Positions 28,508 through 39,745 of a stretch of 50,463 bases of DNA are shown here, piece by piece. The stretch covers positions 1-50,463 of IMG/VR virus record IMGVR_UViG_3300038548_000551, one strand, 5' to 3'. Origin of the DNA: a virus. The first letter of the stretch is position 1; each line of letters begins with the position of its first letter. The notes beneath the pieces were generated by a model. That model had not been told where the DNA came from. It saw only the letters and a list, made by a program, of their open reading frames with translations, and ran no database searches. A program made the translations under genes and the position numbers.

Positions 28508-29871
28508 CTGTCCCCTTCCGCCCCAGTGTGCTGCCGGTCCCCGAGCCGCAGACGCCTTTCTTGGACACGATCACTCGGGCGTTCCTCCAGACGCGCAACC
28601 TGGTGCAGGCTGACCAGGCCACCGCCCAGGCCAACCAGCTGTTCGAGGACCAGCGCCGGCAGAACAAGCTGCGCTCGGAGACCCTGGCCGACGAGCTCAC
28701 CACGCGCCGGCAGGACCGGGCCATCCAGATCGCCGAGGATCCCCGGATCATCCAGGCCCCCCGGCCGGGGGCGGCAGCCCCTGGCCCGGTGACGGCTCCG
28801 GCCCAGCCACCCATCCCGGCCCAGCCCGGCATCCCGCCGGCACCGGGCGAGGAGACGATCGGTGGGCGGATTGCGGACGAATTGGCCCCGCCCCCGGGTG
28901 GGGGTGCCCCGGTGGGGGGTATTCCGCCCCAGGTTGCCCCAGGAGCGCCTCGCGGGCGAGGCGTCACCGACATCGGTGGTGGCCTCTCTTTCGATCCCCA
29001 GGGCCCAGCACGGGCCCAGGATGCGGCTTCTGCGCGATTGCGCGAGATGCTCGAGCAGGTGGCGGTCGGCCACGAGGATCCGGAGACCGGCGAAGCCATT
29101 CGCCAGGCCATCCCACAGATGTCCGCGATGATCCAGACGGGCCAGAACCCGTTGCAGGTGGTCCAGGCGACGATCGGCATGGTGGAACGCATCCAGGCTG
29201 CCCTGCGCGCGCTGCCCGAGAACGCCCGAACGCGCCTGGCGGCGATCGACATTTCCCGGCTGCCGCTCGAGAATCAGCTCGAGGCCGTCCAGGCGGCGGG
29301 GGCCCAGGCCGCCGGCACGGCGGCCGACATCGCGGCGCGCGCCGAGGAGACGCGGATCGACGAGCGCGAGCGGATCCAGGCCATCGAGCTCAAGCGGACG
29401 CCGACGGGGGGCCAGCTCCTCACAGGGGCACAGGGAGAGAAGCCCATCGGCCAGCGGTCCAACACCAAGTCCCTGATGACCCGGTTCACCCGGCTGTTCA
29501 CGGACAACCTGGAGGCGGCGCGGAGCGTCTCGATCACCGATCCGAACCTGCCGGCGCTCCAGGCGTCGGGCGAGGTGGTCTTCCAGGACGGCAAATTCAT
29601 CCGCCTCAACGTCGATGAGGCCGACATTCGGCTGAAAGCCCAGCTCCAGGCGTTGGAGGAGCGCGCGATCTTGTTCACCGACGAGGAGCTGGTGGAGGTG
29701 CGGGCGCGGTTTGACGAGCTGGCCGACGCGGCCCTGGCCGGAATCGGGCTCGAGGGTGGCCCCGAGCGGCCCACGCCGGGGGAGCGCACCACCCAGCTGC
29801 TGGCGGATGGCGTCACTGATCCGGATAGGATCAGGGAGATCCTCCGGGCCGAGGGATACAAAGTCCAGTGA
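28504..29871 (+). CDS. Internal virion/ejection protein, medium
   Basis: A 455-residue protein starting in an ATGA overlap. Helical N-terminus (FLDTITRAFLQTRNLVQADQATAQANQLFEDQRRQNK), Pro/Gly-rich linker near 90-160, and a long helical C-terminal half (QLQALEERAILFTDEELVEVRARFDELADAAL). It lies between the small and giant ejection proteins, the place of T7 gp15 or P22 gp20. No enzymatic motif is visible. Confidence 0.7.
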   Translation: MTVPFRPSVLPVPEPQTPFLDTITRAFLQTRNLVQADQATAQANQLFEDQRRQNKLRSETLADELTTRRQDRAIQIAEDPRIIQAPRPGAAAPGPVTAPAQPPIPAQPGIPPAPGEETIGGRIADELAPPPGGGAPVGGIPPQVAPGAPRGRGVTDIGGGLSFDPQGPARAQDAASARLREMLEQVAVGHEDPETGEAIRQAIPQMSAMIQTGQNPLQVVQATIGMVERIQAALRALPENARTRLAAIDISRLPLENQLEAVQAAGAQAAGTAADIAARAEETRIDERERIQAIELKRTPTGGQLLTGAQGEKPIGQRSNTKSLMTRFTRLFTDNLEAARSVSITDPNLPALQASGEVVFQDGKFIRLNVDEADIRLKAQLQALEERAILFTDEELVEVRARFDELADAALAGIGLEGGPERPTPGERTTQLLADGVTDPDRIREILRAEGYKVQ

Positions 29872-32800
29872 CCACCCCGATTGTGCCGCAGCAGGCGACC
29901 GACGACCCGTTCGACCTCGAGGCGTTCCTGGCCTCCAGGCCCGGGCAGGCGTTCGACGTGGGCCGGTTCGTGGCGGACAGTGTGCCGTTCGACGTCGAGG
30001 CGTTCGTGGCGGAGGCGGAGTCCCGACGCCGGCCGTCGGCCCAGGAGGCGGCGGCGATCTTCGCGGCCACGCCGCGCCGGACGCTGCCCCGGGAGCTGGC
30101 CGAGTTTGGCCGGGGGGTCAACGTCAAGGACTTCCGGCCGGGCCAGCTCGGCCGGACCGTGCGGATGCCCTCGCCGCGGGCGACCGGCGCGCCGCTGATT
30201 ACCCCTCGCGTCGAACGGCCGCTCCCCAACCCGCCGGCCTCGGACGCTCTGGCGTTCGCGGATCCCCCTTCGATCGAGCCACTCAAGGCCCCGGTGACGG
30301 GCGGAGAGGTTCGACCGGCGGACCAGCCCTCCGATGCCGCGGACCTCCTGGCGGGGGCGGTCGAGCGAATGGCGGCCCACCGGGACTTCCTGCGCGAGGG
30401 GATCGGCGACGTCTTCGACATGAACCAACGGGCCTCCGAGCTCACCCTCTCGGCCCTCGAGGGCGCCACCAGTCTCGGGCAGGAGCTTGGCCTCCGGGTG
30501 CCGGCGAGTCTCGCGCAGCGGGCCGGGATCCTGCCGGAGCCGGTCGCCGAGTTTGTCTTCGATCGCATGACCCCATCGGAACGCAGTGCGGAGCTCCAGC
30601 GGCGCGGGCTGCGTTTCCAGCCGCGGATTACCGGAGACCTGCCGTTCGTCGTGACGCCGGAGTCGATGCGCCCGAAAGAGCGCGAGCTGGGATTCGGCCT
30701 GCCCGTGGGGGGCCTCGTCACGGAGCCATTGCTCGGGATCAAGACCGAGACGGACTTGGCCGAGTTCATCGGCAGCCTGCCCCTCATTATCCCGTTTTTC
30801 AAGGGACCGGCGCGCCTGGCGGCCTCGCTCGGCGATCGGGCGACGCGCGCAGCAGCGCGGGCGCTTGGTCCGGCAGTCGCCCGGGGTGCCCCGCCGGTGG
30901 TCTCGCGGCTGGCCAGGGCAGCGGGGGGCGCGGTCACGGCGGGCACGACGGTCGGCGTGGGCAGTGGGCTCCTGGGTGGCGTTCAGGCCGTGGGCGCCGG
31001 CGAGGACCTGCCCGGCATCCTGCGGGCCGCGACCGGACCGCTGATCCACGAAGTCCGCAGCTTGATAGATCCGAGCCAGGGCGTGGGTCTGTTCCGGAGC
31101 TTTAGCCGGGTGGGGGCGGTGGCCGGGCTGCTGCGTAAGCCGCCGTTCGCGGCGACCGTCTCGCGCGAAGTGCGGGCGGATGACCTCGCGTTTCGCGAGG
31201 CGGTTTTCCAGGATATGGAGAACAAAAACCCGTTCGAGCTGTCCCGGGTGGACCTCGAGATCCAGAACGCGATGATCTCGCAGACGGCCGAATTCCACCG
31301 GGACATCATGGCCCCGAAGAAGTTACGGACCATGCGGGGCCGGCTTGCGGTCAACGAGGTCATCCTCCGGCCACCGCCAGACCTCAAGACCCCCCTCGAC
31401 ACCCCCGAGGTCCTGGCGGCGCGGGCGGCGGCCGGCTCGGCGATCCAGACCTCGACTATCAACACGGCGGCGCGCCAGCAGCTGCGCACGGAGTGGCTCG
31501 ATAAGGTCTACGGCGAGGGCGCGCGCCGGCAGGAGCGTCGGGTCACCCTGGTTCTGGGGCCGCCGGCGGCGGGCAAGTCGCAGGCGGTGGCGAAAGCGCT
31601 GGTCGAACGGCTGGGCGCCCTCCTGGTGGACGCGGACGTGTTCAAGGAGCTCATCCCCGAGTTCGAGGGGGGCCCCGGGGCGGGCGTGGTCCACAAGGAG
31701 TCGGCTAGATTGGCTGCCCAGCTCTACAAGCGGGCCCTGAAGGCCGGAGACAACATCGTCATGCCCCGGGTGGGGAAATCCCTGGCCGGCCTACTGGAAG
31801 ACATCCGAAAATTCCACGAGGCCGGCTACACGATCGACCTCCAATATGTCGATCTGCCGATCCAGAAAGCGGCCGTGCGGGCCGTGATTAGGTTTTATCA
31901 GGAGGGCCGCTTTGTCGATCCCTTTTATGTGCTCAACGACGTCGACGGCTTCCCCCTTCGCAGCTTCGAGGCGGTGAAAAATGACCCACGAGTCTCCACC
32001 TATCGACGTGTCAACAACGACGTTCCGCGATCGCGTGGACCAGTCACGGTCGATCAAGGACTTCAGCGAGGAGGAGCTGGCCTTGATGCACGAGCCGGAC
32101 TACGAGGAGCTGCTCCAGCGGGAGGCCCTGGACGAGGCCCACCGGGAGATCCTGGAAGCCCGGCAGCAGCAGTCCTCGCCCGACGCCTCGAAGCCGTCCG
32201 AGTAGCGCACGACGCGGATGCGGCGGCCGGCGCCCGCCTCGCCGGCTTGGCGCGGGCCGACCTGGCCCGGGAGCTCCGGGTGGGCAACGTGACCCTGGCC
32301 GAGGCCCAGAAATTCGAGCGGGAGCTCCGGCAGTTCGAGACCGACGTCCCTCTGGACACGGCCGCCCAGCTCCTGGAGGGGGCCGGGCTGTCCGAGACCG
32401 TGGTCAATTCCATCCTCCAGGGCCTCAACGAGATGGGCACCCGGGTGACTCGGGACATTCTGGCGGAAGCCAAGGGGGATCCGGCGGTCTTCGCCAAGGC
32501 GGCCGGCGAAGCGGTCGGCCGAGAGGCGGGGGTCAGCCCGGGGCTGATTATGAACGAGCGGGGCTCGGTGCGCTTGACCCCCGACGAGCTCCAGGCCCAT
32601 CCGAACCTGTCTGACTTGCCGGCGCACTCCCGCCGGATCCAGGCGCAGCTCCGCATCGGGCTGAACGATCGTTCGCTCCCCACCATGGAGGACATCTACA
32701 CCGCCATCGTGCGGCGCACGTTCGGGATCGAGTCGGTGGAGCGGACCATCTCCGGCGCGTCGGACCTGCCGGCCTCGGCCTCACCCGGGGCGGCGGCGCG

Positions 32801-35330
32801 GCTGGCGGCCGGGTCCAGCCGGCGCTCGGAGGGTTTCCTCGAGATCGGGCCGGCCCAGTGGGATGCCCAGGGCAACCTGGTCTTCTCGGGCACCCCGTCC
32901 TACAAGCGGATCCTCAAGGTGGTGGCCGACCTGAACAAACTGCGGCGCTACGAGGTCGCCCGGCTGACCCTGGACCTCTCCGTGGAGCGGGAAGGCCCCA
33001 CCGGCGCGCGCCGGCCGGAGGTGGAGACGGGCATCTCGGTGGAGGACGCGCGGCTCGAGGTGGCGGACGCGACGGCAGTGATCCGCGAAGCCGCCGACCA
33101 GAGCGTCATGTTCCGGCTCCAGGGCCTCGAGTACCTGGCCGAGGCCGGCGGGGTCTCTCCCACCCTGCTCGCTCTCGCGCGCTCGCTCATGGAGCGCTAC
33201 GTGCCGCTCAACCGGGTGTTCGAGGGGAAGGATCCGATGGCCGGCGGCGGCGGCACCGGTTTCGTGGGCCGGGTGGGCCAGCAGATCCGCCGGCGGGTGG
33301 GCAGCAAGCGGCCGATCCTCGATCCCGTCGAGTCGACCATCGACCAGAACCGGCGATTCATCCGGGCGGGCGACCTCAACCGGGTGGCGCTCCGGCTGAT
33401 CGAGCTGGCCGAGGCGTTCCCCGAATCGGCGTCCGGATTCATCGAACGGGTGAAGGAGCCCTCCGGCAGGCCCAGCTCGGTCGAGGTCATCCGGCTCCGA
33501 GAGGCGGCCGAGCGGCGCGGCATCGAGATGACGGAGGCCGAGGCCCAGCAGCTGTCCGGCATACTCGGCGACCGCAAGCTCGACATCGCCGACGGGATCA
33601 TCAATGTCTGGCGGGATGGCGTCGAGCAGCAGTGGCGCGTCTCGCCCGAGGTGGCGCGGGCCATCCAGGCCCTGCGGCCCGGGGACGTCCCGATGTACCT
33701 CCAGCTCTTGGGCATGCCGGCGGTGCTGATGAAGGGCGGCATCACGCTGAACCCGGCGTTCCAGGCGTTCAACTTCATCCGCGACACGTTCGACGCCACG
33801 GTCCAGAGCCAGTACGGTTTCAAGCTGGGCATCGACTCCTTCCGCGGCTTCTACGAATCGGCCAAGGGCCAGTGGCTGGGCGACCCCAGCCAGATTTACC
33901 AGGAATTCGTGCTCGGCGGCGGCGGCTTCTCTACCCAGCGGGGCCAGGGCGGGCGGCGGGCCCAGGCCCAGCTCCGGAGGATCCTCCCCCAGTCCGGCGG
34001 GCGGCGGGTGCTCGGGCGGATCATGCACCCGATCGACGCCATGAAAGAATTCGGGGCCCCGTTCGAGGAGGCGGCCCGGGTGGGCGAGTTCATGCGGGCC
34101 CGGAAGCAGGGCGCCAGCGTCATGGAGGGGATCCTGGCCAGCCAGGAGGTGACGGTCAACTTCCAGCAGATCGGCGCCCAGATGCAGGGTTTCGCCTACA
34201 TGACGGCGTTCCTCAACCCGGCGATCCAGTCGATGGACCGGGCGGCCCGGGTGGGGGCGTTGCCGTTCCAGCGGCTGAAGGCCAGCCGGCGCGCCGGCGG
34301 GGATGCCCTCGACCAGGCCGCGGCGTTCGCGGATCCGGCCGGCCGGGCGCTGGTCGCCGCGGTGGGCTCGATCGCCCTGCCGTCGATCATGTTCTGGCTG
34401 GCGGCCCGGGATGACCAGGAGATCAACGATCTCCGGAAGACCAACGCCGGCCTCATCTACTGGTTCGTGCGTCTCTCGAAGACCGGCGAGATCATCCGGC
34501 TCCCGAAGCCCTTCCTGTACGGCCAGATTTTCGGCACGGGGATGGAGACGGCCCTCGACATCGCGTTCGACAAGGACCCGGAGGCCATGGGTCGGTGGGC
34601 CGAGGGCATGCTCGACCAGCTCCAGGCCAACGTCATCCCCACCGCCGGCGTCCTGGTGCTCCAGCAGGTGTTCAACAAGAATCTGTTCTTCCAGAGCCCG
34701 ATCATCCCGCGCGGCCTGGAGAACGTGGAGCCCCGCTTCCAGTCGCGCGCCACCACCGGCACTGTGGCCCGGAGGATCGGCGACCTGCTGAACATCAGCC
34801 CGGCCCGCATCGAGCAGTTCAACCGGGACCTGTTCGGCACCCTGGGCGGAGAAGCGCTGAAGGCGGCGGACATGACCGCGGACCGGCTGAGCGGCGGCAC
34901 GACGTCGGCGCCCACCCGGGTCTCGGCCGATCGCCTCCTGATCGGCCGGTTCTTCGCCCGGAGCCCGACCACCAACGTCCAGCCGATTCGCAAGTTCTAC
35001 GATGACGCCCTGAAGGCGGAGGAGGCCGAGAACAGCCTCCGGATCAACCGGGACAACCAGACCCGGTTCACCGATGTCTTGACGCGCCGGCAGGTCGACC
35101 TAGCTTTGGCGCCGACCTACGCCGGCGTCCGGAGCCAGCTCAACGTGGAGCGGAACAAGATCGAGGTCATCCGCTCGGTACCGGACGCCGTCCTGTCACC
35201 CGATCGCAAGCTCGAGTCCATCGCCGAGGTGATGCGCACGATGATCGAGCTCGCTCGCGCGACCAATACGATCGCCGATCTCATGCGCGCCCAGCTCGAG
35301 GCGGCTCTGGAGGGTCAAGGTGGACGCTAA
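29868..35330 (+). CDS. Giant ejection/polyvalent protein with zeta-type kinase domain
   Basis: A 1,820-residue protein, GTG start overlapping the previous stop. Residues about 558-715 form a zeta-toxin-like kinase. They include VTLVLGPPAAGKSQAV (Walker A at 564-571), VDADVFKELIPEFEGG (Asp 588/590), VHKESARLAAQL, GYTIDLQYVDLP and GRFVDP. Near 1288-1310 NPAFQAFNFIRDTFDATVQSQYG matches the LPD38-type polyvalent region, and SIALPSIMFWLAA near 1505 is hydrophobic. Polyvalent proteins travel with the DNA into the cell. Residues 715-780 have poor codon use, where another ORF is embedded (31981). The kinase could phosphorylate UDP-GlcNAc like zeta toxins; this is inferred. Confidence 0.8.
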   Translation: MTTPIVPQQATDDPFDLEAFLASRPGQAFDVGRFVADSVPFDVEAFVAEAESRRRPSAQEAAAIFAATPRRTLPRELAEFGRGVNVKDFRPGQLGRTVRMPSPRATGAPLITPRVERPLPNPPASDALAFADPPSIEPLKAPVTGGEVRPADQPSDAADLLAGAVERMAAHRDFLREGIGDVFDMNQRASELTLSALEGATSLGQELGLRVPASLAQRAGILPEPVAEFVFDRMTPSERSAELQRRGLRFQPRITGDLPFVVTPESMRPKERELGFGLPVGGLVTEPLLGIKTETDLAEFIGSLPLIIPFFKGPARLAASLGDRATRAAARALGPAVARGAPPVVSRLARAAGGAVTAGTTVGVGSGLLGGVQAVGAGEDLPGILRAATGPLIHEVRSLIDPSQGVGLFRSFSRVGAVAGLLRKPPFAATVSREVRADDLAFREAVFQDMENKNPFELSRVDLEIQNAMISQTAEFHRDIMAPKKLRTMRGRLAVNEVILRPPPDLKTPLDTPEVLAARAAAGSAIQTSTINTAARQQLRTEWLDKVYGEGARRQERRVTLVLGPPAAGKSQAVAKALVERLGALLVDADVFKELIPEFEGGPGAGVVHKESARLAAQLYKRALKAGDNIVMPRVGKSLAGLLEDIRKFHEAGYTIDLQYVDLPIQKAAVRAVIRFYQEGRFVDPFYVLNDVDGFPLRSFEAVKNDPRVSTYRRVNNDVPRSRGPVTVDQGLQRGGAGLDARAGLRGAAPAGGPGRGPPGDPGSPAAAVLARRLEAVRVAHDADAAAGARLAGLARADLARELRVGNVTLAEAQKFERELRQFETDVPLDTAAQLLEGAGLSETVVNSILQGLNEMGTRVTRDILAEAKGDPAVFAKAAGEAVGREAGVSPGLIMNERGSVRLTPDELQAHPNLSDLPAHSRRIQAQLRIGLNDRSLPTMEDIYTAIVRRTFGIESVERTISGASDLPASASPGAAARLAAGSSRRSEGFLEIGPAQWDAQGNLVFSGTPSYKRILKVVADLNKLRRYEVARLTLDLSVEREGPTGARRPEVETGISVEDARLEVADATAVIREAADQSVMFRLQGLEYLAEAGGVSPTLLALARSLMERYVPLNRVFEGKDPMAGGGGTGFVGRVGQQIRRRVGSKRPILDPVESTIDQNRRFIRAGDLNRVALRLIELAEAFPESASGFIERVKEPSGRPSSVEVIRLREAAERRGIEMTEAEAQQLSGILGDRKLDIADGIINVWRDGVEQQWRVSPEVARAIQALRPGDVPMYLQLLGMPAVLMKGGITLNPAFQAFNFIRDTFDATVQSQYGFKLGIDSFRGFYESAKGQWLGDPSQIYQEFVLGGGGFSTQRGQGGRRAQAQLRRILPQSGGRRVLGRIMHPIDAMKEFGAPFEEAARVGEFMRARKQGASVMEGILASQEVTVNFQQIGAQMQGFAYMTAFLNPAIQSMDRAARVGALPFQRLKASRRAGGDALDQAAAFADPAGRALVAAVGSIALPSIMFWLAARDDQEINDLRKTNAGLIYWFVRLSKTGEIIRLPKPFLYGQIFGTGMETALDIAFDKDPEAMGRWAEGMLDQLQANVIPTAGVLVLQQVFNKNLFFQSPIIPRGLENVEPRFQSRATTGTVARRIGDLLNISPARIEQFNRDLFGTLGGEALKAADMTADRLSGGTTSAPTRVSADRLLIGRFFARSPTTNVQPIRKFYDDALKAEEAENSLRINRDNQTRFTDVLTRRQVDLALAPTYAGVRSQLNVERNKIEVIRSVPDAVLSPDRKLESIAEVMRTMIELARATNTIADLMRAQLEAALEGQGGR
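31981..32205 (+). CDS. Embedded 74-codon ORF inside the giant gene
   Basis: This ORF lies in another frame of the giant gene just after the kinase domain. Its ATG follows GAGGCGG. Codons end mostly in G or C and the product is a normal acidic helical protein (SIKDFSEEELALMHEPDYEELL, EALDEAHREILEARQQQ). The giant frame over the same bases uses GGA, CGA, GTA and CTA and gives Gly/Arg/Pro-rich sequence. The signal says the embedded frame is, or was, the real coding frame here. An antitoxin to the kinase is one possibility. Confidence 0.55.
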   Translation: MTHESPPIDVSTTTFRDRVDQSRSIKDFSEEELALMHEPDYEELLQREALDEAHREILEARQQQSSPDASKPSE

Positions 35331-37877: not shown

Positions 37878-38714
37878 TCACTTCTTCGTGGCCTGCTCGG
37901 CCTTCTTGTCATCGAGGGCCATCTTGAGCTCCTCCTGGCGGGCCTGGGTCTCCTCGCTGATGGCCGTGGCCAGCTCGCCCTCGCTCTCCTCCCGCAGCGG
38001 CCGGGTCACCTTGCCGGTGTCGCCCCGGGTGTCGATCTCGAGCATGTCGGTGATCTCCCGGACCTTGGTGAGCGGCAGCCGCTTGTCGACCAGAAACTTG
38101 GTGACCGTCTTCATGGCCTGGCGGTCCCACCACTGGGTCCAGGGGATGCCCTCGGCCATCCTCGAGCTCTTACGGATCCGCTCGACCTCCATCCGGTTCA
38201 TCACGTGGAACAGGGGCTTGGGGGCGTCGCGGAGCCAGGCGATCGCGTAGACGAACAGGATCTCCTCGGTGTTGCCCCGGTCGATTCCGTAATCCGGAAT
38301 GTGGATGAGCTTGGGGTCGCTGCCCTTGGACACCTCGAAGCGGTCCTGGACGAAGACCACGTCGGCGTCGATGATCGACACCGCGCCGGAGCGCATGGCC
38401 GCGGCCACGTAGCCCCGGTAGTCGGGGACCATGGTACACTTGCGGTTGAACGGCACCAGGTGGGCCTCGCGCCCCAGCAGCAGGCCCAGCCGGGCTGCGT
38501 CGTAGACGGCCCCGACGATCGAATTCGGCTCACACTCGGCGAGCTTGGGATTCCGGTTACACTCGAACGTGGCAATCTGGATCAGCTGGCCGGCGGTCAA
38601 CCCGCTGGCCTGGGGCAGGATCTCATCCAGCCGATCGGCTCGCAGCTGGAGCATGTCGAGGGCGGTGTAGTCCTTGCCGTTGTGGCGAATCTTCTGGAGC
38701 TCGGTTCTGGCCAT
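37878..38714 (-). CDS. recT: RecT-family ssDNA annealing protein
   Basis: A 278-residue protein, ATG at 38714 overlapping the preceding stop. It has the RecT core: QLIQIATFECNRNPKLAECEPNSIVGAVYDAARLGLLLGREAHLVPFNRKCTMVPDYRGYVAAAMRSGAV, then FEVSKGSDPKLIHIPD and IPWTQWWDRQAMKTVTKFLVDKRLPL. The C-terminus is charged and helical. RecT anneals complementary strands produced by the partner exonuclease at 38714-39745, for recombination and circularisation of the genome. Confidence 0.9.
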   Translation of the reverse strand: MARTELQKIRHNGKDYTALDMLQLRADRLDEILPQASGLTAGQLIQIATFECNRNPKLAECEPNSIVGAVYDAARLGLLLGREAHLVPFNRKCTMVPDYRGYVAAAMRSGAVSIIDADVVFVQDRFEVSKGSDPKLIHIPDYGIDRGNTEEILFVYAIAWLRDAPKPLFHVMNRMEVERIRKSSRMAEGIPWTQWWDRQAMKTVTKFLVDKRLPLTKVREITDMLEIDTRGDTGKVTRPLREESEGELATAISEETQARQEELKMALDDKKAEQATKK

Positions 38715-39745
38715 CAATCCTCCTCGGTGATGTGGTAGACCTTGAGCTGCTTGCTGGCTTTGGTGGTGGTGCAGAGAGCCTCGATGTCCGCGCGCATGTG
38801 CGCGATCGCGTCCTTCAGGTCCTCGAGACACCCGTACTCCGCGGCCCAGGCCGTGAGCAGTAGCGGGTCAATCAGTCCGGCCCCCTCTATGGCCTTGCGG
38901 TTCAAACGCTTCTGGCCGGCCAGCAGCTTGTAGTAGACGCGGGCCCCGGCGCCCTCGAAGACGCCCAGCCTGGTGCAGAGCTCGGCCAGGGTGTTGCGCG
39001 CCAGGTCCTTGAGCACCCCGGCCTCCTTGGCCATGGCCCGGAGCTCGACGTAGGCCTGGACGGCCGCGGCCCACTCCGGATCCGTCCGGGTCTCGACCAG
39101 GCCCTCGACGGCCGGCAGCTCGATCTTCCACTCGGGCTCTTTCTCCCGGGGGGGGATCCGGGGGATCACGTGGTCATTCCAGAAGTGGTCGCAGACCTCG
39201 ATGGCCTGCTTCTGGATGTCCGGGTCGACCTCGTAGTTGATGATCTCGAGTCGCCAGGAATCGGGGTGGAGCACGGCGAACGCCACCCACCGGTGATTGC
39301 ACAGCGAGGCGTAGTGGATGCCCTGGAATTGGTAGGACATCTGCAAGCCCTTCTTCACGATCTCGTTGAAGACCCACATGCCCATGGTCTTGATCTCGAG
39401 CACCCCGCCCTCGCCGAACGGTTTCGGCAGGGCGCGGGGCGTGACGTGCTCGCGCACCAGGCCGTCCGGGTGGCCGATCAGCCAGGCCCAGCGGGAGTGC
39501 TTCCGGAAGCGGGCCGGCTTGGTCTCCCGGCCAGACTCCTCGCGATAGCGCCGGCGGATCAGCGGCTCGAGGGCGATGCCCCGCTCGAGCACCAGCTTGG
39601 GCTCCTCGCGTGGCGGGACCTCGGCGATCTTCTCCCGGTAGACGTCCAGCGGGCTGGTGTACGGATCCACGCCTACAATCGGCCCCACATCTGATCCCCC
39701 GATGCCTGATTGCCGGCGCAGGTGGAACGCAGTGCGGTCACTCAT
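38714..39745 (-). CDS. YqaJ/lambda-exonuclease-type recombination nuclease
   Basis: A 343-residue protein. Residues RRQSGIGGSDVGPIVGVDPYTSPLDVY, LVLERGIALEPLIRRRYREE, WLIGHPDGLV, GVLEIKTMG and QFQGIHYASLCN give the order E...G/HPDG/ExK/Q of the YqaJ fold. The metal site is the Asp and Glu-x-Lys pair. It degrades 5' strands to make tails for RecT. Its start overlaps the stop of a possible 42-codon ORF. Confidence 0.9.
   Translation of the reverse strand: MSDRTAFHLRRQSGIGGSDVGPIVGVDPYTSPLDVYREKIAEVPPREEPKLVLERGIALEPLIRRRYREESGRETKPARFRKHSRWAWLIGHPDGLVREHVTPRALPKPFGEGGVLEIKTMGMWVFNEIVKKGLQMSYQFQGIHYASLCNHRWVAFAVLHPDSWRLEIINYEVDPDIQKQAIEVCDHFWNDHVIPRIPPREKEPEWKIELPAVEGLVETRTDPEWAAAVQAYVELRAMAKEAGVLKDLARNTLAELCTRLGVFEGAGARVYYKLLAGQKRLNRKAIEGAGLIDPLLLTAWAAEYGCLEDLKDAIAHMRADIEALCTTTKASKQLKVYHITEED

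Follow-up and report, generated by a model that had tools for sequence, protein, structure and literature searches.

A predicted antitoxin gene in the +1 frame at the end of a zeta-type kinase domain in a phage polyvalent protein

In the epsilon/zeta (PezAT) systems the antitoxin, epsilon or PezA, is the product of a separate gene located upstream of the toxin gene. AvrRxo1/Arc1 consists of a zeta-like kinase and an antitoxin encoded downstream of it (PMC4938570). Rpn antitoxins are translated from internal starts and constitute the C-terminal domains of their toxins (Zhong et al. 2023; PMC10327210). Zeta-like kinases of phages have been listed in polyvalent proteins and as fusions to MuF (Iyer et al. 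2017; PMC5512222); the passages found there on zeta kinases do not speak of an antitoxin, and neither 'overlapping' nor 'nested' is used of genes. Small putative immunity open reading frames (ORFs) have been described immediately downstream of the MuF toxins of temperate phages (Jamet et al. 2017; PMC5576092). The locus considered here lies in a virus contig of IMG/VR, IMGVR_UViG_3300038548_000551, all 50,463 nucleotides of which are referred to as the window (positions are window coordinates). At 31981-32205 (+) a small ORF with a 74-residue product is nested, in the +1 frame, inside a giant ORF of 1820 codons (29868-35330, +), at the end of the zeta-toxin-type kinase domain that the giant frame encodes (31527-32045, +). 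The stretch is judged to be a genuine small gene nested in another frame; its product is, with rather better than even confidence, most likely an antitoxin (immunity protein) of the kinase encoded upstream of it. No report of an out-of-frame nested antitoxin was found in the literature searched, a search whose scope excluded most subscription papers.

The embedded ORF opens with ATG and closes with TAG. Its openness by itself was rejected as evidence, being unremarkable at the GC content of the window: 22% of synonymous-codon resamplings of the giant protein retain a comparable +1 ORF (p = 0.22 given the giant protein). The evidence for a gene lies in codon usage, substitution pattern and conserved position. 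The GC content of third codon positions (GC3) in the giant frame falls from about 0.9 to 0.23-0.45 over the embedded stretch, that of the +1 frame rises to 0.95-1.0, and both then revert. With a codon-usage model trained on the other genes of the window phage, the 74 embedded codons score +36 bits in the embedded frame and -53 in the giant frame. From 32046 to 32202 the +1 frame is ahead of the giant frame by +80.6 bits; the same score elsewhere in the genes of this phage has a mean of -79.3 and a maximum of -1.2 (5030 windows). The best-fitting frame-switch points are 31999 and 32204, the second of which is the embedded stop. By score, GC3 flip and the switch at its stop, then, the embedded frame is the local coding frame, as a preliminary description of this DNA had proposed. 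The same description had placed the ORF directly after the kinase, which is correct past 32045 but not before it: homology of the giant frame to halovirus kinases extends to about 32045, so that the first ~20 embedded codons (31981-32045) overlap real kinase and this DNA is read twice. (In the final part of the kinase, 31788-31980, giant-frame GC3 is about 0.68-0.80, below the value of at least 0.9 found elsewhere in the ORF, already before the nested gene begins.)

A nucleotide search among phages retrieved no relative, scanning IMG/VR with single sequences (the kinase, the LPD38 segment of the giant protein, the embedded product) gave no usable one, and an alignment of 18 kinase sequences proved too divergent to be used in scanning the collections. 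Eighty related-kinase loci, some of them near-identical, came from a scan of IMG/VR that was based on an alignment, and from these a non-redundant set of 54 sequences including the window was made; the kinases of the relatives are roughly 30-47% identical to that of the window. At 73 of the 80 loci an ATG-started +1 ORF of 53-110 codons is situated at the end of the kinase and inside the kinase ORF. Two further loci (L031, L044) are cut by the end of the contig, and at three (L079, L082, L084) the small ORF extends beyond the kinase stop. By codon usage, no stretch of the whole ORF is more +1-like than the nested part in 37 of the 54 non-redundant loci.

Selection was measured in seven groups of these relatives, not in the lineage of the window itself, for which the collections searched hold no close relative at the DNA level. 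The wobble position of the giant frame takes 60% of changes upstream of the nested stretch, 38% inside it and 55% downstream, and the drop is seen in every group. The ratio of nonsynonymous to synonymous substitution (dN/dS, Nei-Gojobori) in the giant frame is 0.14 upstream, 0.77 in the nested part past the kinase and 0.15 downstream; the corresponding values for the +1 frame are 1.28, 0.44 and 1.05. Over the nested part past the kinase it is therefore the +1 frame that is constrained, and only there is that frame under purifying selection. The giant frame, though relaxed to weak constraint there, is open in 54 of 54 loci, against 2.9 expected given the nested proteins, and true dual coding, with both frames constrained over the overlap, is well supported. 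The homologs might have kept the giant frame only, or have failed to conserve the start and stop of the small ORF, either of which the preliminary description had named as contrary to its proposal; the per-frame tests that it suggested gave the opposite outcome, with +1-frame dN/dS at 0.44 inside and 1.05-1.28 in the flanks. These substitution patterns, the count of open giant frames and per-locus codon usage largely refute the idea that there is no gene here at all, which is now very improbable. The flip in frame would then be an accident of composition in a Gly/Arg/Pro linker, or the trace of a pair of compensating indels or assembly errors within a single long protein. Given the giant protein, an open +1 frame is nothing unusual in GC-rich loci, which fits such an idea. 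On the other hand, the same flip recurs in many independent contigs, among them AT-rich phages, and in isolated archaeal viruses, and in the window the switch in codon usage falls on the embedded stop.

A second account retains the coding +1 frame and dispenses with the separate protein: programmed +1 frameshifting would give the kinase an alternative C-terminal tail. The ~20-codon overlap with the kinase is unconstrained in the +1 frame (dN/dS 1.06), and entry into that frame could accordingly take place anywhere within it. The same lack of constraint indicates that the N-terminus of a separately made nested protein is probably a passive tail. The start itself argues for separate initiation. 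The most frequent start is at one exact position of the alignment, an ATG within the GAT-GGN of an Asp-Gly pair; elsewhere the ATG is drawn from Asn-Asp (the window, L016/L018) or Tyr-Ala (L013/L014). An ATG is present at the scored site in 52 of the 54 non-redundant loci, against 32 expected given the giant protein, and the other two have it one codon off (the ATG nearest the common position was chosen and the loci are related, so that these probabilities are not independent). Matches resembling a Shine-Dalgarno sequence are longer than expected over the set, 4.8 bases against 4.0. In the window the possible ribosome-binding site is GAGG at 31968-31971 (+), 9 nucleotides before the nested ATG, and at this locus alone it is within chance. 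Closure of the +1 frame shortly upstream is common, the frame being open for a median of 6 codons before the ATG in the relatives; in the window, a TGA at 31975-31977 (+) closes it just before the ATG. Inspection of the overlap sequences revealed no common shift site, and frameshifting is considered distinctly improbable.

What the nested gene does is approached through its neighbor. The kinase domain matches Pfam Zeta_toxin (E 1.4e-15, residues 554-707 of the giant protein). It is predicted by AlphaFold2 with high confidence, its best matches in the PDB are zeta, PezT and AvrRxo1 (3q8x, 1gvn and 2p5t among the best), and it is also matched in the PDB by sequence. The motif residues are conserved (P-loop GKS, D38, K43, P47, E48, R121 and R125), and the GKS, D, K, E and R positions are invariant across the kinases compared. 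Fold and motif residues together make kinase activity plausible. Kinases of the zeta type are characterised as toxins and have small proteins as antitoxins, one of which, Arc1, is encoded downstream, and this supports an antitoxin reading of the nested gene, as do conservation of the kinase motifs, linkage to the kinase across protein architectures and presence with shorter kinase genes. The +1 ORF accompanies the kinase when its fusion partner is ddrB-ParB (L013, L016), when it is LPD38 (the window) and when the kinase is C-terminal. A search of IMG/VR with the nested protein alone returned 11 loci, all 11 directly on a zeta-type kinase, and no stand-alone copy.

The gene could also be real and translated and serve another purpose, for example as a small chaperone of packaging or ejection, or a regulator, of the giant protein. 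All of the coding evidence fits such a gene equally, function is judged from position only, and the giant protein is of a virion-type class. Nonetheless, the ORF tracks the kinase and not any fusion partner, across architectures and in the shorter kinase genes of cellular contigs, and a role of this other kind is considered unlikely.

Several observations weigh against an antitoxin. Part of the linkage to the kinase is an unavoidable result of the DNA that the two have in common. The +1 ORF is absent from 2 of the 80 loci, L050 and L085. The nested product of the window has no fold match in the PDB, and no member of the set of nested proteins has a credible match in Pfam or PHROG. Scored in a leave-one-out test against a profile built from the remaining nested proteins, the C-terminal part of the window product reaches 3.2 bits, a value that 59 of 500 shuffles equal or exceed. 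Acidic charge, which is typical of antitoxins, was considered as a family trait and rejected, since it is not conserved among the nested proteins. The acidic, helical product of the preliminary description is thus upheld for the window, with 19 D+E, 8 K+R and two predicted helices, but acidity does not extend to the family. (AlphaFold2 gives the nested product an N-terminus of low confidence and two helices, the long one with a per-residue confidence score, pLDDT, of about 85.) Leave-one-out recognition failed likewise for L013, L014, L016 and L038, was marginal for L017 and L074, and succeeded for L019, L027, L064, L065, L070 and L086. A short core appears to be shared, by eye only (DYEELLQR in the window, FDYDAAEER and LDLEEIENR in others). 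The window product is counted in the set for its place and frame, its start and stop and its codon usage, the protein being too diverged for proof of homology by sequence. The nested gene is unannotated and in no known family.

As for L050 and L085, theirs are viral kinase ORFs that stop right after the kinase, and they may be losses or differently controlled kinases.

Cellular contigs and archaeal viruses bear on the origin of the arrangement. At L093 (a metagenome-assembled genome, or MAG, of Selenomonadaceae) and L103 (Butyrivibrio sp. MC2013) the small +1 ORF extends beyond the stop of a shorter kinase gene, and the two form an ordinary overlapping pair. At L098 (a Rhodobacter MAG) the +1 ORF is nested, and the nested profile recognises it although it was outside the training set. 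More distant zeta-like kinases of Clostridia are without a small +1 ORF. Of the small ORFs that lie downstream in cellular loci, none has an NCBIfam match that passes the cut-off. Haloarchaeal viruses HVTV-1, HCTV-1, HCTV-5 and HCTV-16 have a +1 ORF of 39-50 codons about 100 nucleotides past the kinase, with the same GC3 flip. In Haloarcula tailed viruses it is found at 2234-2353 of L008, 2207-2326 of L009 and 2216-2368 of L012, and at the same place in L121. It is conserved between genera (HVTV-1/HCTV-5 and HCTV-1/HCTV-16) and unannotated, these viruses being annotated with one zeta-toxin gene. The likeness of archaeal and bacterial-virus +1 ORFs is one of place, frame and GC3 flip, and homology is not claimed. 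The unfused overlapping states (L093, L103 and the viral L079, L082 and L084) suggest that a toxin frame was extended through an antitoxin. The ancestor would have been a kinase gene overlapped at its downstream end by a short antitoxin gene; on loss of the kinase stop, the toxin frame would have carried on across the antitoxin to the next coding unit and been fused to downstream domains, the other frame of the antitoxin turning into a flexible linker. The direction from pair to nested state is the most likely one, judged from geometry. The preliminary description had offered a small gene and a read-through fusion as alternatives, and the data favor both at once: a gene of its own, by conserved ATG, Shine-Dalgarno-like sequence, stop and purifying selection in the +1 frame, and a fusion, by continuation of the toxin frame into other domains and by the unfused overlapping states.

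Small ORFs of 52-121 codons are also found just past zeta-like kinases in Vibrio and Bacteroidota chromosomes (L108, L109, L113, L118 and L120). They have no credible family match, and it is possible that they are downstream antitoxins.

The giant ORF is a phage-type large polyvalent protein gene, containing LPD38 (34458-34901, +; Pfam E 2.3e-24) as well as Zeta_toxin, and it adjoins virion genes: a region encoding portal, major head and internal virion proteins leads up to it. No Pfam match to MuF was found in the giant protein of the window. The kinase is in mid-protein, about 550 residues into the ORF. It is followed by the linker opposite the nested gene (32046-32205, +), which is Gly/Arg/Pro-rich and predicted to be disordered (pLDDT 40-52; dN/dS of 0.77 in relatives). 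Terminase relatives were found (L003/L004). A related phage (G001; L006, 8537-13516 of contig IMGVR_UViG_3300009488_002146) is 70-76% identical to the window in nucleotide sequence across the structural genes; two different genes, of 697 and 961 codons, replace the giant polyvalent gene (29868-35330 in the window). The giant-gene module thus appears to be swapped among related phages, and this phage, having other genes at the site, is uninformative on the nested ORF. Past about 35.5 kb gene direction in the window changes, and 37878-38831 (-) has, by eye, the look of a RecT-type recombinase.

If the nested product is an antitoxin, ribosomes would start at the internal ATG and one mRNA would yield toxin and antitoxin at a constant ratio. 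The antitoxin, a small helical protein, would bind and block the kinase during synthesis and packaging of the giant protein, and be left behind or degraded on entry of the giant protein into the next host, in which the kinase might phosphorylate cell-wall sugar precursors or another small molecule. Neutralisation of the kinase by the product is plausible; toxicity, internal initiation, virion delivery and loss of the antitoxin on entry we infer. The small partner would explain how an intact zeta-type kinase is produced without harm to the producing cell. More tentatively, and with slightly less than even confidence, the locus may represent a widespread class of viral toxin-antitoxin systems, in bacterial and archaeal viruses, in which the two proteins are encoded by two frames of the same DNA in a virion-delivered polyvalent protein, so that toxin and antidote would be inseparable by inheritance or recombination and the other frame of the antidote would serve as disordered spacer. 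If the antitoxin reading is right, annotation pipelines have overlooked an antitoxin gene throughout a class of phage polyvalent proteins. This raises the testable question of whether the toxin domains of virion-delivered polyvalent proteins are active, and what silences them before delivery; the cultured Haloarcula viruses are isolates in which the idea is directly testable.

Set beside epsilon/zeta (PezAT), the window likewise pairs a kinase of zeta-type fold with a small protein. Its partner differs from epsilon/PezA: it is shorter, has no detectable similarity to it, and is encoded at the 3' end in another frame of the same DNA; no separate epsilon/PezA gene precedes the kinase, and neither product matches a known antitoxin family. 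The kinase model of the window matches the AvrRxo1 structure, but Arc1 is encoded by a separate downstream gene and has its own motif, whereas the window gene is inside the toxin ORF and the motif, KExFD(x25-27)(Y/L)ExxYY, is absent from its product on reading. The phage polyvalent proteins with zeta-like kinase (PMC5512222) are the class to which the giant protein belongs, with zeta-like kinase and LPD38 or ddrB-ParB domains. MuF polymorphic toxins are also encoded by phages and delivered, and a small putative immunity ORF adjoins the toxin domain; theirs is downstream and that of the window nested, in a giant protein that lacks a Pfam MuF match. As in phiX174, where E lies within D (PMC8227390), one gene is wholly inside another in a different frame, but the products in the window are predicted antagonists, and the ancestor looks like two overlapping genes and not like the overprinting of a single old one. 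With the Rpn intragenic antitoxins the window would share translation of an antitoxin from inside the toxin gene; the Rpn antitoxin is in the frame of its toxin, whereas the predicted one of the window is in the +1 frame and an unrelated protein. If it is an antitoxin, it can be thought of as the out-of-frame counterpart of the Rpn proteins, in a toxin-antitoxin pair locked together through extension of the toxin across its antitoxin.
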